A stretch of DNA of 64,000 bases from Alphaproteobacteria bacterium. GTDB taxonomy: Bacteria; Pseudomonadota; Alphaproteobacteria; Sphingomonadales; Kordiimonadaceae. The notes beneath the pieces were generated by a model, which saw only the letters and a list, made by a program, of their open reading frames with translations, had not been told where the DNA came from and made no database searches. The translations under genes were made by a program, and so were the position numbers. This document shows positions 9,187 through 57,167 of this stretch, piece by piece. The stretch lies in the NCBI GenBank assembly GCA_006226495.1, contig SBGU01000046.1:1-64000 (forward strand), read 5' to 3'. Positions within the stretch are counted from its first letter, which is position 1, and every line of letters starts with the position of its first letter.

Positions 9187-10043
9187 CCGACAGCCTGCCG
9201 CCCCTACGGGAAGTGATCCGTGCCTACGACCTGCGCGCCAAGAAGAATTTCGGCCAGAACTTCCTGCTGGACCTGAACCTGACCAGCAAGATCGCCCGTG
9301 TTCCCGGTGATATTTCGGACAGCGTTGTCTATGAAGTGGGCCCAGGGCCCGGTGGCCTGACGCGCGGATTGTTGATGTCCGGCGCCGGGCGCGTGGTTGC
9401 GGTCGAAATGGACAGCCGCTGCCTGCCCGCGCTCGCGGATATTTCCGCAGCCTATGAAGGCCGGCTGACCGTTCATAATGCCGACGCGCTTGATGTGGAC
9501 GAACTGGCGCTTCTGGCACCAAAGGAAGGCGAGAAGGTCCGGATCGCGTCCAACCTCCCGTATAACGTCGGCACCATGCTGTTGATCAAATGGCTGACCG
9601 CTGAACAATGGCTGCCCTGGTATGCGTCCCTGACCCTGATGTTCCAGCGCGAGGTTGCCGAACGCATTGTCGCCAAACCCGGCAGCAAGACCTATGGCCG
9701 CCTGTCGGTGCTGGCCCAGTGGCGCGGCAAGGTGCGCATCGCCCTCAATGTACCGGCGGCTGCCTTCACGCCGCCGCCGAAGGTTGCAAGCGCTGTGATC
9801 CATTTTGAACCGACCGAGCCGATCGACCCGACCGTGAAGCTCGCTGATCTTGAGTTCGTGGTCGAACGTGCCTTCAACCAGCGCCGCAAGATGCTGCGCG
9901 CCAGCCTCAAGGGACTGCCGGTGGACGCGCTCGCGCTTTTGGAAATGGCGGAGATCGACCCGACCCTCAGGGCCGAAGATGTCAGCGTCGCCGACTTTGT
10001 GCGGCTGGCGCGCTGTTATGGCGACATGAAAAACCGGGCTTAA
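9183..10043 (+). CDS. rsmA: 16S rRNA (adenine1518-N6/adenine1519-N6)-dimethyltransferase
   Basis: This 286-residue KsgA/RsmA enzyme dimethylates the two adjacent adenines in helix 45 of 16S rRNA. Key motifs are [11 protein letters not shown], the SAM-binding [14 protein letters not shown], and the catalytic NLPYNVGT; the [11 protein letters not shown] and [12 protein letters not shown] stretches are typical. Its ATG overlaps the pdxA stop. Its own TAA (10041-10043) overlaps by 2 bp the stop codon of the opposite-strand gmk gene, inside a palindromic terminator. Confidence 0.96.
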
Positions 10044-10054
10044 GCCCGGTTTTT
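10029..10054. terminator. Bidirectional rho-independent terminator shared by rsmA and gmk
   Basis: A perfect 26-bp palindrome has arms AAAAACCGGGCTT and AAGCCCGGTTTTT. Transcripts from either side form a GC-rich stem with a tetraloop TTAA, followed by a T run. The TAA stop codons of rsmA (10041-10043) and gmk (10042-10040 on the minus strand) both lie in the loop region. Confidence 0.9.
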
Positions 10055-13993: not shown

Positions 13994-14104
13994 CGGTCGT
14001 TCCTTAATTTCTATCTTGCAGCCCAAATGCGGACAGAAAATGAAAAGGGCAACAGCCAACCTCAACCGGCGCGGCTGTTGCCCTCATTGAATAGCAGATC
14101 CGGC

Positions 14105-19457: not shown

Positions 19458-19488
19458 AAAAAGGCGGCCCAGGTGGCCGCCTTTTTTA
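19458..19488. terminator. Rho-independent terminator after rplI, usable from both strands
   Basis: Arms AAAAAGGCGGCC (19458-19469) and GGCCGCCTTTTT (19475-19486) pair perfectly around CAGGT, followed by more T residues. It separates rplI from the convergent sulfotransferase gene. Confidence 0.9.
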
Positions 19489-30484: not shown

Positions 30485-30566
30485 GGCCTGCACAAGCAAA
30501 CTTGGCCTTTGGGCCTCCGTTCCTGTAGGCTGGCGCAACCGTCAGCCCGGACAATCGGAGGCCCAA

Positions 30567-31361
30567 ATGCTGAAATCCCTGATCCCTGCCCTTTTTCTGG
30601 CGTCCATGCCCGCCCTCGCGGCTGACCCCCTGGACCTTTCCGGCCAGGCCTTTGTCGACCTGAGCCATGCGTATGGCGAGAACACATTGTTCTGGCCAAC
30701 ATCGCCTATCAAGTTCGAACACAAGCAACTGGCATACGGCGAAACCGAAGCCGGTTATTTCTATTCGGCCTATAGCTTCTGCATGCCCGAACATGGCGGC
30801 ACCCATCTTGATGCCCCGATCCATTTCTCAAAAGGCGGCGACACGGCGGACAAGGTTCCGCTCGACAAACTGATCGGCCCTGCGGTGGTTATTGACATCA
30901 GTAAACAGGCCGCCGCCAACCGCAATTACCGGCTGCAGGCCGAAGATGTCGATGCGTTCGAAAAGGAACATGGCCGCATCCCGGATGGCAGCGCCGTCCT
31001 GTTGCGCACGGGCTGGGACCGGTATTGGCCGGACGCCAAATCCTATCTGGGCGACGACACGCCGGGCGATGCCAGCAGGCTCAGCTTTCCGTCTTTCGGC
31101 GCGGCTGCTGTCGCCATGTTGATATCGGAACGCCATGTGCGACTGATCGGCATTGACACTGCGTCCATCGATTATGGCCCGTCGCGTGAATTTCCGGTGC
31201 ACCAGTTGGCAGGTGGCGCCAATATCCCGGCGCTTGAGAACCTGACAGGGCTTGGTGCCCTGCCCGCCACCGGCACAACCCTGATCGCACTGCCGATGAA
31301 AATCGAGGACGGGTCGGGCGGGCCGGTGCGTGTGGTAGCGCTGGTGCCGAAAGCTCAGTAA
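30567..31361 (+). CDS. Secreted cyclase-family (kynurenine formamidase-like) hydrolase
   Basis: The 264-residue product starts with a signal peptide (MLKSLIPALFLASMPALA) and is probably periplasmic. The metal-binding motif HGGTHLDAPIHF matches the HxGTHxDxPxH signature of the cyclase/KynB family. GIDTASIDYGPSREFPVH is also typical. KynB itself is cytoplasmic, so the exported form probably has another substrate. It is followed at 5 bp by the convergent end of the AsmA/YhdP-like gene. Confidence 0.85.
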   Translation: MLKSLIPALFLASMPALAADPLDLSGQAFVDLSHAYGENTLFWPTSPIKFEHKQLAYGETEAGYFYSAYSFCMPEHGGTHLDAPIHFSKGGDTADKVPLDKLIGPAVVIDISKQAAANRNYRLQAEDVDAFEKEHGRIPDGSAVLLRTGWDRYWPDAKSYLGDDTPGDASRLSFPSFGAAAVAMLISERHVRLIGIDTASIDYGPSREFPVHQLAGGANIPALENLTGLGALPATGTTLIALPMKIEDGSGGPVRVVALVPKAQ

Positions 31362-40841: not shown

Positions 40842-40880
40842 AAAAGGGCGCGACCATATCCGGCCGCGCCCTTTTCTTTT
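40842..40880. terminator. Bidirectional terminator between bactofilin and prfB
   Basis: Arms AAAAGGGCGCG (40842-40852) and CGCGCCCTTTT (40865-40875) pair perfectly, followed by CTTTT. It separates the plus-strand bactofilin from the convergent prfB. Confidence 0.85.
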
Positions 40881-45886: not shown

Positions 45887-46415
45887 TTCCCGCAGAGTCT
45901 CTGCCCGAATTGCTCAAGGTTTCCATAGATAGTATGAATATTGTTTGAATGGCTCAAGTGAAACCGACGCCAGGATTCCACCTGGCCGAAAAACGCATGC
46001 GCAGAAATAGCTGACAGACAAGCCAGTTTTCGATTGTAAAGGTCGCGTGACTTCACTATTTTACCGATGCGAGTTTTTCGACCGGCCGCCCCAAAAGCGG
46101 CGGGTCGGGGTTTCGCCGGGATGACTGCGTGGCCTGTCCCACTGGACGGCTGCTTCCATCCTCCGAAACCAAATAAGGACAAGAACCGGCAATGGCCAAA
46201 AGGCTTTGCGCAGTAAAGATCAACAGGCTGGACTACCCGCGGAACCGCGAGTGGCCACCTTTTTCTGCGTCCGATTGCCTGTCGGGGATTGGCCTCTCTA
46301 AGCCTTCGGCGCCTCGCCGTCCGCAGGTCATTTCTCACAAAAACATGGAAACCGTCTGCGCCCCCCTCGTAAGAGAGGGCGTGCCTGCGCGGCGGTCTGT
46401 CCGGAGACTTACTAT
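45887..46415 (+). promoter_or_regulatory. Long amiC-rne intergenic region and putative structured rne leader
   Basis: These 529 bp hold no convincing gene. A candidate promoter, TTGTAA (46034-46039) with TATTTT (46057-46062) 17 bp apart, would give rne a 5' UTR near 347 nt. The leader contains several likely hairpins, among them CCGCGGAACCGCGAG near 46239 and CGCCCCCCTCGTAAGAGAGGGCG near 46360. RNase E commonly limits its own mRNA through such a leader. GGAG lies about 9 nt before the ATG. Confidence 0.5.
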
Positions 46416-52192: not shown

Positions 52193-53179
52193 CTAGATCA
52201 GGCCAGACAGCGGCGAGCTCGGGTCGGCATAGCGTTTTTTGGGCATGCGACCCGCAAGATAGGCCAGACGCCCGCTTTCGACCGCCAGTTTCATGGCGCG
52301 CGCCATCATTACCGGTTTTTTGGCTTCGGCAATCGCGGTGTTCATCAGCACACCGTCACAGCCCAGTTCCATGGCCACTGCGGCATCCGACGCCGTGCCG
52401 ACACCGGCGTCCACCAGCACGGGCACATTCGCCTGTTCGATCATCAGCCGGATCTGCACCGGGTTCTGGATGCCAAGGCCCGAGCCGATGGGCGCACCCA
52501 GCGGCATGATCGCCACGCAGCCCATATCCTCCAGCCGCCTGGCGGCGATGGGGTCGTCGGAGCAGTATACCATGACCTTGAAACCATCCCTGATCAGCGC
52601 TTCAGCGGCGGTGAAGGTTTCCAGCATGTTGGGATAGAGGGTCTTCTGGTCGCCCAGCACTTCAAGCTTCACCAGGTCCCAACCACCGGCTTCACGCGCC
52701 AGACGAAGGGTGCGCACGGCGCTGTCGGCATCAAAACAGCCGGCGGTGTTCGGCAGATACGTGATTTTTTTTGGGTCCAGATAATCGACCAGCATCGGCT
52801 GGTTCGGGTCCGAGACATTGACCCGGCGCACGGCCACGGTGACGATTTCGGCGCCAGACGCCGCGACCGCCGCTGCCGTTTCTTCGAAATCCTTGTATTT
52901 GCCGGTGCCGACAATCAGGCGCGAGCTGTAGGTCTTGCCCGCCAGGGTCCAGGTGTCTTGGTCCGTCACTGTTTCCAGTCCTCCGCCGATAAAATGAACA
53001 ATTTCAAGCCGGTCGCCGTCTGCCAGGCACACATCAGCATAGGTGGATTTGGGCACGATCTCCCGATTGCGCTCAACCGCCACCTTTGTGGGATCAAGGC
53101 CCAGGCCCCGCAGAAACCCTGCGATATCGGTCGCTGCGTCCAGATTTTTGGTGTCGCCATTGACGGTGATGCTGATCAC
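52193..53179 (-). CDS. thiSG: Fused sulfur carrier ThiS and thiazole synthase ThiG
   Basis: The 328-residue protein joins ThiS (about 1-67: [20 protein letters not shown] ... [15 protein letters not shown]) to ThiG (about 75-328), whose Schiff-base Lys171 is in [21 protein letters not shown] and [11 protein letters not shown] are also present. ThiS normally ends in a free Gly-Gly that is thiocarboxylated; here the GGG is internal and leads into ThiG. The start is GTG 53179, with AGGATCAGG upstream. No other thi gene is nearby, and no TPP riboswitch motif was seen. Confidence 0.92.
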
Positions 53180-53801: not shown

Positions 53802-54275
53802 ATGTCGAAAATTCAAGATTATAAAGAACTCATTCGCGAACTCGCGGAACTCCTGGACAAATCAACCCTGTCCGAAATCGAGGTAGAGGAAGAAGACTTC
53901 CGTATCCGCGTCGCCCGTGATGTTCCGAATGCGGTCAGCTATACCGCGCCGGCCATGGCCGCCCCTGTTGCTGCCGCCGCGCCCGTCGCCGCACCTGCCG
54001 CCGCACCGGTCGCGCCTGCTGCCGCCAATCCGGCTGACCACCCGGGTGCCGTACCGGCGCCGATGGTCGGCACAGCCTATGCTTCGCCCTCGCCCGGCGC
54101 CGATCTGTTCATCAAGGTTGGTGACACCGTCAAGGAAGGCGACACTCTCCTGATCATCGAAGCGATGAAAGTGATGAACCAGATTGCGTCGCCCAAATCC
54201 GGCAAGGTGAAGGAAATCTTCTTCGCCGACGCGCAGCCGGTCGAATATGGCGAAGTTCTCTGCATCATCGAGTAG
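53802..54275 (+). CDS. accB: Biotin carboxyl carrier protein of acetyl-CoA carboxylase
   Basis: The 157-residue protein has a helical N terminus, an Ala/Pro-rich hinge (about 45-80) and a biotinyl domain. The biotin-accepting Lys123 is in IIEAMKVMNQI. It carries CO2 on biotin between AccC and the carboxyltransferase to make malonyl-CoA, the substrate of FabD. accC begins 11 bp downstream. Confidence 0.97.
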   Translation: MSKIQDYKELIRELAELLDKSTLSEIEVEEEDFRIRVARDVPNAVSYTAPAMAAPVAAAAPVAAPAAAPVAPAAANPADHPGAVPAPMVGTAYASPSPGADLFIKVGDTVKEGDTLLIIEAMKVMNQIASPKSGKVKEIFFADAQPVEYGEVLCIIE

Positions 54276-54286
54276 GACGATAACGC

Positions 54287-55633
54287 ATGTTCAAGAAAGT
54301 CCTGATCGCCAACCGGGGCGAGATCGCACTTCGCATCCACCGTGCCTGCCATGAAATGGGCATCAAGACGGTCGCCGTGCACTCGACCGCCGACAATGAT
54401 GCCATGCATGTGCGGCTGGCGGACGAAAGTGTCTGCATCGGCCCGCCCGCGTCCGGCCAGAGCTACCTGAATATCCCGGCCATCATTTCGGCGGCTGAAA
54501 TCACCGGCGCGGACGCCATCCACCCCGGTTACGGTTTCCTCTCGGAAAATGCCCGTTTTGCCGAAATCGTTGCCGGCCACGGCATCACCTTCATCGGCCC
54601 GTCGCCCGAGCATATCCGCCAGATGGGCGACAAGATCACCGCCAAGGAAACCGTGAAGAAACTGGGCATCCCGGTTGTTCCCGGTTCCGCCGGCGGCATC
54701 ACCGACGACGATGAAGCCCGCAAGGTGTGTGAAGAGATCGGTTTCCCGGTCATCATCAAGGCATCAGCGGGCGGTGGTGGCCGCGGCATGCAGATCGTGC
54801 GCACCGCTGACGAACTGCCGCGCAAGCTGCAGACCTGCCGTACCGAAGCCAAGGCGGCCTTCGGCGACGACGCTGTCTATATCGAGAAATTCCTGCAGAA
54901 ACCCCGGCACATCGAGTTCCAGATCATCGGTGACAGCCATGGCAACTGTATCCACCTGGGCGAACGGGACTGCAGCCTGCAGCGCCGCCACCAGAAGGTT
55001 CTCGAAGAAGCGCCGTCCCCGGTGATCGACAGCACCACCCGTGAACGCATGGGCGGCATCGTCGCCCGCGCCATGGCCGATTTCGGCTATTGCGGCGCCG
55101 GCACCATCGAGTTCCTGTATGAAGACGGCGAATTCTATTTCATCGAAATGAATACCCGTGTTCAGGTGGAACATCCGGTGACCGAAATGATCACCGGCAT
55201 CGATATCGTGCGCGAACAGATCCGGGTCGCCTCGGGCGAGAAGCTCAGCTACACGCAGGACATGGTGCGGTTCTTCGGCCATGCCATCGAATGCCGCGTG
55301 AATGCCGAGCATCCTTTCACCTTTGTGCCGAGCCCGGGCAACGTGACCCAGTATCACCCGCCCGGCGGCCTGAACGTGCGCTGCGACAGCGCGGTTTATG
55401 CCGGCTACAAGATTCCGCCCTATTATGACAGCATGGTCGCCAAGCTGATCGTGTCCGGCTACACCCGCGAGGGCTGCCTGATGCGGCTTCGGCGGTCGCT
55501 TGAGGAATATGTGATCGACGGTGTCACCACCACGATCCCGCTTCACCAGGCGCTGATCGACAATGACGAGTTCCGCGCCGGCCAGTATGATATTCACTGG
55601 CTGGAAAAATTCCTGGCGGAACGCAACAAATAG
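54287..55633 (+). CDS. accC: Biotin carboxylase subunit of acetyl-CoA carboxylase
   Basis: The 448-residue ATP-grasp enzyme carboxylates biotin on AccB. Signatures are [33 protein letters not shown], the glycine-rich loop [14 protein letters not shown], and [21 protein letters not shown] with the metal-binding Glu residues and the catalytic Arg. It is of standard length. aat starts 40 bp after the stop. Confidence 0.97.
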
Positions 55634-55663
55634 CACTGTCGCAAACGCACATAGATACGATAA

Positions 55664-55700
55664 ATTAGGGGTTATGCCACATGATGTCATAACCCCTAAT
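55664..55700 (+). repeat. 13-bp perfect inverted repeat covering the aat ribosome site and start codon
   Basis: Arms ATTAGGGGTTATG (55664-55676) and CATAACCCCTAAT (55688-55700) are exact reverse complements around an 11-nt loop that itself contains ACAT-G-ATGT. The left arm contains the aat Shine-Dalgarno AGGGG and its ATG. A CTTTT tract follows the right arm. It could be an RNA hairpin that blocks translation, an attenuator, or a DNA operator. Confidence 0.85.
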
Positions 55701-56333
55701 CTTTTGTTGCAGGCCTATGCCGCCGGCGTGTTCCCCATGGCCGAAAGCCGGGACGATGCCGAACTGTTCTGGGTCGACCCCGATGAACGCGGCATCCTGC
55801 CCCTTCAGCATTTCCATATGCCCAAATCGCTGGCCAAGGTCGTGCGCCAGGACCGGTTCGAGGTTCGGGTCGATACAGCCTTCAGGCGTGTGATGCAGGC
55901 CTGTGCGCGCCCGGCCCGCGGGCGCGAGACCACCTGGATCAGCGAACGGATTGAAGCCCTTTATACCGACCTTCATGCGCGCGGGTTTGCCCATTCCGTG
56001 GAATGCTGGCTCGATGGCCGGCTGGCGGGCGGGCTCTATGGTGTGTCGATGGCCGGGGCCTTCTTCGGCGAAAGCATGTTCCACCGGGAAACAGACGCCA
56101 GCAAGGTTGCCCTTGTACATCTGGTCGCGCGGCTGAAAGCCGGCGGTTTCAGCCTCCTGGATACCCAGTTTGTCACCGATCACCTGAAACAGTTCGGTGC
56201 GCGCGAAATTCCGCGCAAGGAATATCACGCGCGGCTGAGGGACGCGCTCAACCAGATCACGGCCAATTTCTATTCGCTGGGGGACGTCTCGTCGGGGTCG
56301 ACCGTCTTGCAGTTGATCACCCAGACATCATAG
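55674..56333 (+). CDS. aat: Leucyl/phenylalanyl-tRNA-protein transferase
   Basis: The 219-residue enzyme adds Leu or Phe to proteins with N-terminal Arg or Lys, marking them for ClpAP through Clp[55 protein letters not shown] and [16 protein letters not shown] are diagnostic. ATG 55674 has AGGGG upstream, but both lie in one arm of a strong inverted repeat. No other in-frame ATG precedes the conserved core. The end overlaps the convergent DUF2155 gene by 64 bp. Confidence 0.95.
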
Positions 56334-56728
56334 ACCGGATGCTCGAGCGCATTGAGCGCCGGGCTTGAGGCAATCATCCAGCCGTCGAACACGCGCTCCC
56401 GGTTCCCTGCCCGCTTGATATCGTCGATTTCGAGATAGGCATAGGTTTCGGGTGTTTCGATCGGCGGCCGGGTCCGGCAATAGCGCGCGGTCAGCGCCAG
56501 GGTGCCAAACTGCACTTCTTCGCCAATCGGCAGTTCAAGTTCGGTCGTGCGGGCGGTGATTTTATCCAGCGCCCGCAGAACCGCGATATTGTGGGATGTG
56601 TTGGCCGGATCGTCAGCGCCTCCGGGGATCGGCTGCATATCCTGGCCGGAAACGGCAGGCGCAGCCATGGCCATGGCAGCCGCAGCCGCCATCACCAGCG
56701 CCAACCGGTTATTCCTTCTTGGCGCCAT
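56270..56728 (-). CDS. DUF2155 secreted protein
   Basis: The 152-residue product has a signal peptide (about 1-29, ending PAVSGQ) and the DUF2155 core: [43 protein letters not shown] and [21 protein letters not shown]. Its two Cys residues could pair. The role of the family is unknown; it is conserved beside aat and mlaD in alphaproteobacteria. ATG 56728 overlaps the mlaD end by 20 bp; ATG 56755 is also possible. Confidence 0.88.
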
Positions 56729-57167
56729 CACTGCCGCCGGTGGCGAACTTGCCAATCAGACCCAGAAGGTCAAGCGCATCCTGGGTTTCCGAAACCTCGT
56801 CGCCGTCCGCCAGCATGTCGTCCATGCCGCCCGGGATCAGGGTCAGGTACTTGCCCCCCAGAAGGCCTTCCTGCGATACGGCCGCCGCGGTATCCACCGG
56901 CAGCTCGATATCGGATTTCACGGAAAAACGGATGATCGCTTGGTACGTCTTGTTGTCCAGTTCACTGGAAACCACGGTGCCGACCTTGATGCCGGCCAGG
57001 CGCACGTCCGAGCCGACACCGATGCCGTCAATCTGGTCGAAACGCGCCTGCAGCACATAACCGCCGCTGACACCGCCATCTGTGCGGTCATAGGCGAAAA
57101 CCAGGAACCAGCCGGCAATCGCCAGCACCAGGGCACCAATGAGGGACTCTACCAGATTGCTCGACAT
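56709..57167 (-). CDS. mlaD: MlaD-type MCE domain lipid transport protein
   Basis: The 152-residue protein has one N-terminal membrane helix (about 5-25) and an MCE domain (FDQIDGIGVGSDVRLAGIKVGTV ... VSQEGLLGGKYLTLIPGG). MlaD rings in the inner membrane conduct phospholipids between the membranes, working with MlaE, MlaF and MlaC. Those partners are not in this window. The gene lies between NDUFA12 and DUF2155, its usual alphaproteobacterial place. Confidence 0.92.
   Translation of the reverse strand: MSSNLVESLIGALVLAIAGWFLVFAYDRTDGGVSGGYVLQARFDQIDGIGVGSDVRLAGIKVGTVVSSELDNKTYQAIIRFSVKSDIELPVDTAAAVSQEGLLGGKYLTLIPGGMDDMLADGDEVSETQDALDLLGLIGKFATGGSDGAKKE

Follow-up and report, generated by a model that had tools for sequence, protein, structure and literature searches.

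Introduction

In translationally coupled gene pairs such as VII/IX of phage f1, coat/lysis of MS2 and rpmI-rplT of E. coli, a structure covering the start of the downstream gene lies close behind the upstream stop codon, and a review describes RBS-occluding structures in several such pairs (PMC12548453). The same review sets out unfolding and scanning models of coupling and states that a structure right after the upstream stop can reduce coupling (PMC12548453), and a second paper gives two main proposals, unwinding and scanning by the 30S subunit (PMC7538156).

The accC-aat junction described here shares with these pairs a start-covering structure close behind an upstream stop codon. It differs in having both hairpin arms downstream of the accC stop, one of them made up of aat codons, and in keeping the pairing across a bacterial family while sequence and register drift; coupling at this junction is something that we infer. 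Translational riboswitches and RNA thermometers likewise hide a start region in a helix, whereas the aat hairpin has neither an Rfam match nor a separate sensing domain in its predicted fold. Intrinsic terminators resemble the hairpin in the window (the whole 64,000-nucleotide stretch of DNA that was analyzed), where a strong stem is followed by a T-rich stretch, but such a tail is present in only 3 of 21 hairpin genomes, and the aat start lies within the stem or is enclosed by it. Hairpins that cover a start codon at an operon junction belong to a known kind of element, and the one at aat looks like a new example that is well supported by sequence comparison. We know of no description of aat control in cis, and among the matches listed in a search of the open-licence literature (titles and abstract starts), we found no cis control of aat and no Kordiimonas RNA element, which is weak evidence of absence.

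Materials and Methods

Among the genomes compared, the assembly has 18 others of the same genus and 28 others of the same family, giving a family set of 29 genomes of Kordiimonas and relatives (Kordiimonadaceae). Ninety-six genomes were matched and 70 junctions were examined, the remaining 26 all lying outside the family of the window. After removal of 14 duplicates, 155 loci yielded 141 distinct junctions, 29 in the family and 112 outside it. Identical junctions are shared by one same-genus genome (G017) and Kordiimonas aquimaris (L038), and by family member G023 (L029) and Kordiimonas sediminis (L037).

Pairing was measured between positions -60 to -7 and -3 to +27, relative to the Ile/Val codon of a conserved Aat motif. 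A junction was scored as a hairpin if it contained an uninterrupted helix of 8 to 18 bp and no more than 6 of 300 shuffles did as well. The arm ends used to measure T-rich tails and stop-to-stem distances were entered by hand, with the inner helix taken by eye for L006.

Results

The features of the window that are relevant to the junction are as follows.

53802 to 54275, + strand: accB (NCBIfam TIGR00531, above cut-off)
54287 to 55633, + strand: accC, upstream of aat (NCBIfam TIGR00514, above cut-off)
55664 to 55676, + strand: left arm of the hairpin, made up of the last bases of the accC-aat spacer and the ATG of aat
55674 to 56333, + strand: aat, leucyl/phenylalanyl-tRNA--protein transferase (NCBIfam TIGR00667, equivalog, above cut-off)
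55677 to 55687, + strand: loop of 11 nt, part of aat codons 2 to 5
55688 to 55700, + strand: right arm, the last base of codon 5 and codons 6 to 9 (Ile-Thr-Pro-Asn)
55701 to 55708, + strand: T-rich stretch of Leu codons 3′ of the right arm; resembles a terminator tail in the window, not generally conserved

The spacing of the genes suggests that accB, accC and aat are presumably co-transcribed as one message, with accB first. The stop codon of accC is at 55631-55633, and the stem begins 30 nt downstream of it. The reading frame, together with conservation of the ATG among relatives, indicates that the aat start codon is probably the ATG within the stem. The 3′ end of aat overlaps a convergent ORF on the - strand (56270-56755) by 64 bp (56270-56333).

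It was found that positions 55664-55676 (ATTAGGGGTTATG) are the exact reverse complement of positions 55688-55700 (CATAACCCCTAAT), with 11 nt between the arms and the aat ATG (55674-55676) forming the final three bases of the left arm. This bears out the original prediction of a perfect 13-bp inverted repeat, which is the longest of its type in the window and the sole perfect one of at least 13 bp with a loop of 3 to 40 nt; one such repeat appeared in 1 of 20 dinucleotide-shuffled versions of the window and none in the other 19. Folding of the RNA, which had been proposed as a check, gave -25.7 kcal/mol for 55634-55720 (z -3.66), a value equalled by 0 of 200 shuffles, and the predicted fold of the junction is a single hairpin in which no separate sensing domain was seen. 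Within 55400-56000, Rfam gave three matches at E 5 or less, the best at E 2.1; none reached the gathering threshold, and none overlapped 55664-55700.

Dispersed palindromic repeats of the REP/RPE type occur in many copies per genome. The pattern of the aat-start repeat, with up to 3 mismatches allowed, was found at 1 place in the 4,320,207-base assembly, which speaks against a dispersed repeat element within that mismatch limit.

The gene accC is directly upstream of aat in all 29 family genomes, its stop codon starting 23 to 81 nt before the motif Ile/Val codon. A hairpin as defined above was found at this junction in 21 of the 29 (in L006 the qualifying helix is the outer one, the inner helix having a mismatch), and the eight members below the helix threshold are L013, L017, L019, L022, L023, L024, L114 and L115, a split of 21 versus 8 that was drawn post hoc, after the helix results were known. 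In a duplex test of the same regions, the median z was -3.2 in the family (n = 29) versus 0.1 outside it (n = 112). At most 7 of 300 shuffles paired as well in 20 of the 29 family junctions, as opposed to 2 of the 112 outside the family (L117 and L107), counted on the 25 lowest rows listed. In this test, L022 was borderline (6 of 300 shuffles as good), and L012 and L014 each reached only 16 of 300. Because accC is also within 400 nt upstream of aat in 77 of the 112 outside-family junctions, the hairpin is not brought by accC adjacency alone. Relatives that keep the aat start and lack the repeat had been named beforehand as evidence against the element; such relatives do occur, with 8 of the 29 family members below the threshold and the junctions outside the family at chance, and 21 of the 29 keep the hairpin.

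In all 21 hairpin genomes, the right arm is aat coding sequence. It corresponds to the codons for (I/V)-T/S-P-x-L, and the left arm is the accC-aat spacer, which in the window type includes the aat ATG. The position of the ATG varies, being in the stem in the window type and in the loop in others (L012, L018, L021, L028 and L030), and the helix includes or encloses the AUG in 21 of 21. Arm sequence, register and loop length (9 to 31 nt, the outer helix of L006 excluded) all drift, and complementarity is kept.

On average, the two arms of a genome fit each other better than they fit those of other members, with a mean pairing energy of -22.3 kcal/mol for own arms versus -16.1 kcal/mol for arms swapped among family members. 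When the right arm was replaced by random synonymous versions, at most 14 of 300 paired as well in 18 of the 21 hairpin genomes; the weaker cases were L012 (99 of 300), L038 (55 of 300) and L018 (34 of 300). In a 35-row tree built from the AccC end and Aat, the hairpin label required 5 changes versus a shuffled mean of 11.3. With 11 of its 32 inner branches open, this tree has a weak backbone that gives no order of gain and loss for the hairpin.

Start regions were compared in 20 of the 28 other family genomes. That of aat had a median z of -3.29, with 12 of 20 rows below -2.5, whereas those of ten neighbouring genes had median z values of -0.31 to 0.75, with 0 to 2 rows each below -2.5 (these genes being anchored at the median protein-match start rather than at proven start codons, with the gene at 52193 on the - strand giving no usable row and the ORF at 46302 on the + strand left out). 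A general habit of gene starts was not seen in these ten neighbouring genes, which were at chance.

Two further junctions were noted. L117 (G069), from another family of the same order, is the sole strong case outside the family (z -5.5, 0 of 300 shuffles); its Shine-Dalgarno-like TAAGGAGGAG can pair with the aat Leu codons CTCCTCCTTA, a helix identified by eye, and its hairpin is possibly of independent origin. L013, which lacks the helix between spacer and codons, has a self-contained hairpin, TGGCGC-tttcgag-GCGCCA, ending at the A of the ATG, also identified by eye.

The drift of the arms is seen directly in their sequences: the window pairs ATTAGGGG with CCCCTAAT, L015 pairs TCGGGG with CCCCGA, L011 pairs TGGCG with CGCCA, L010 pairs GGGGGAGACA with TGTCTCCCCT, L030 pairs TTTCAGGGGTAA with TTACCCCTGAAA, and L135, in which the Pro codon is replaced by Leu, pairs AAAGGTCAAGCG with CGCTTGACCTTT. 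Covariation was quantitatively evaluated on an alignment of 11 window-type sequences (10 distinct rows). In these rows, 93.1% of cells were paired, versus 86.2% after shuffling and 27.7 to 46.2% when the arms were slid, and the covariation score was 0.253 versus 0.111 shuffled, a value that 0 of 500 shuffles reached. Both sides were changed in 9 cells versus 3.5 after shuffling (0 of 500), and the number of pairs with a both-side change was 3, reached by 143 of 500 shuffles and so no excess among the window-type rows. Extension to 17 pairs gave 82.4% paired versus 77.2% shuffled (0 of 500) and 6 pairs with a both-side change, which 63 of 500 shuffles reached. The third base of the Pro codon was paired in 10 of 10 distinct sequences, by five types of pair and without a break, and G-U pairs were present where a palindrome would be broken. 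In the covariation check that had been proposed, the arms change in step among relatives, silent sites included, and the start codon is included in or enclosed by a hairpin that is kept up by paired changes.

The pairing is also visible in codon choice. With the AUG in the stem, the opposite arm must read CATA, and this forces the Ile codon to be ATA: all 11 window-type genomes use ATA for Ile at codon 6, whereas among the other Ile codons of aat and the end of accC in these genomes ATA accounts for 32 of 427, and for 0 of 36 in the window. Because L115, which has no hairpin, also has ATA at this codon, ATA alone is no mark of the hairpin. Between the window and L003, codons 5 to 10 are identical and loop codons 2 to 4 are all silently different; from codon 13 onward, 76 of 178 same-residue codons have changed.

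The original prediction placed both a Shine-Dalgarno sequence, AGGGG, and the ATG in the left arm. The ATG is indeed in the stem, but AGGGG (55667-55671) is a weak candidate, as it lies 2 nt before the ATG and is absent from some hairpin-bearing relatives (L006, L011 and L135); such a gap is unusually short for a Shine-Dalgarno sequence. A sigma-70-like match was found on the + strand at 55563-55591, in a region with a total of 2 matches versus 1.9 expected, which is not decisive for a promoter of aat's own or a leaderless start.

Discussion

The maintenance of the hairpin in evolution by matched mutations on both sides suggests that it controls the amount of Aat. Because sequence, register and loop length are free while pairing is kept, in part by G-U pairs, the function appears to be that of RNA rather than of DNA, and because the helix includes or encloses the AUG in 21 of 21 hairpin genomes, it points to a brake on aat initiation. 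On balance, we consider it somewhat more likely than not that the RNA hairpin is a cis-acting brake on aat translation, one most likely opened by ribosomes finishing accC. In this model, the spacer (in the window type, together with the AUG) would pair with the first aat codons across Kordiimonadaceae accC-aat junctions, the paired start would hinder loading of the 30S subunit and so lower aat initiation, and ribosomes that had just translated accC would open the hairpin and relieve the brake, as in translational coupling. The claim that RNA structure buries the start of the downstream gene agrees with both the predicted fold and the covarying pairing conserved among relatives.

The distances between the genes bear on how the hairpin might be opened. 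In the hairpin genomes, the accC stop is 15 to 57 nt (median 24) from the aat ATG, and the stem begins at most 12 nt after the stop in 12 of 21. The hairpin is nevertheless retained at stop-to-stem distances of 1 to 48 nt, the long cases being the window (30 nt), L003 (31 nt) and L014 (48 nt). Given the ribosome footprint, a stem 30 to 48 nt away would seem to be out of direct reach of a ribosome terminating at accC, so these three would require either a constant brake or opening by scanning ribosomes or some other factor. Feedback through the Leu codons that follow the right arm was also considered, and it was set aside because evidence was lacking.

A different function for the same RNA structure has a minor though real chance of being correct: the hairpin might mainly protect the 3′ end of the accBC message or mark an RNase cut, giving differing stability, with any effect on aat initiation secondary. 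The position of this strong stem at an operon boundary, the conservation of pairing but not of sequence, and an accC stop close upstream in 29 of 29 family genomes would all fit; a stabilizer, however, needs neither aat codons nor an enclosed AUG, and the right arm is aat coding sequence in 21 of 21. The terminator-like character ascribed to the T tract after the right arm, which would make the hairpin an intrinsic terminator or attenuator cutting read-through from accC into aat, did not extend far beyond the window, and we regard this as improbable. The window tail CTTTTGTT has 6 T in 8 nt, and at least 6 T were found in 3 of 21 hairpin genomes versus 2 of 120 other junctions, a small excess in which two of the three genomes are the window and its sister L003. 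The other 18 have fewer than 6 T, the median over all 21 is 4 T, the same as in the 120 other junctions, and the stem sits over the start of the very gene it would end. Some termination is possible in the genomes with T-rich tails (the window, L003 and one more). A terminator scan covering loops of 3 to 8 nt does not list the 55664-55700 hairpin, whose loop is 11 nt.

Two readings require no functional RNA structure. The suggestion of a DNA operator, or a cruciform bound by a regulator, draws on the palindromic symmetry in the window but does not hold up among relatives, where half-site sequence, spacing (loop length) and register drift while complementarity stays, and where G-U pairs occur at positions that would break the palindrome; the site is also single in the assembly, and we consider this reading very improbable. 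It is hardly credible that a G-rich start region simply happens to pair with ACC CCN, the Thr-Pro codons of a conserved protein motif. Pairing of GGGG with CCCC does contribute in many genomes, and similar short matches are seen in several members without the hairpin (e.g., L017 and L022), but chance as a general explanation is contradicted by the shuffle, synonymous-arm, arm-swap, outside-family and neighbouring-gene controls, and the helix forms without GGGG in L006, L011, L018, L038 and L135.

A bolder version of the brake on aat translation, which we offer tentatively as a minor possibility, is a family-specific switch that would make the amount of Aat, an N-degron enzyme, depend on translation of the fatty-acid gene accC or on a trans-acting signal, with only occlusion selected and the register free to slide. 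If the brake is real, aat would be controlled in cis, and the junction would provide a test bed for unfolding versus scanning in coupling, because the stop-to-stem distance varies so widely among genomes that retain the hairpin. The 21 start-covering hairpins form a natural series for a single gene, for which relatives and neighbouring genes without a hairpin serve as controls, and the coding arm makes visible the hold of RNA pairing on silent codon choice.

The window also contains five other perfect inverted repeats, of 11 to 12 bp, at 10029-10054, 14046-14084, 19458-19486, 30508-30567 and 40842-40875, so that those of at least 11 bp total six, versus 0 to 2 per shuffle (n = 20). Three of the five start with an A-run, which would be expected of terminators acting on the opposite strand or on both strands.
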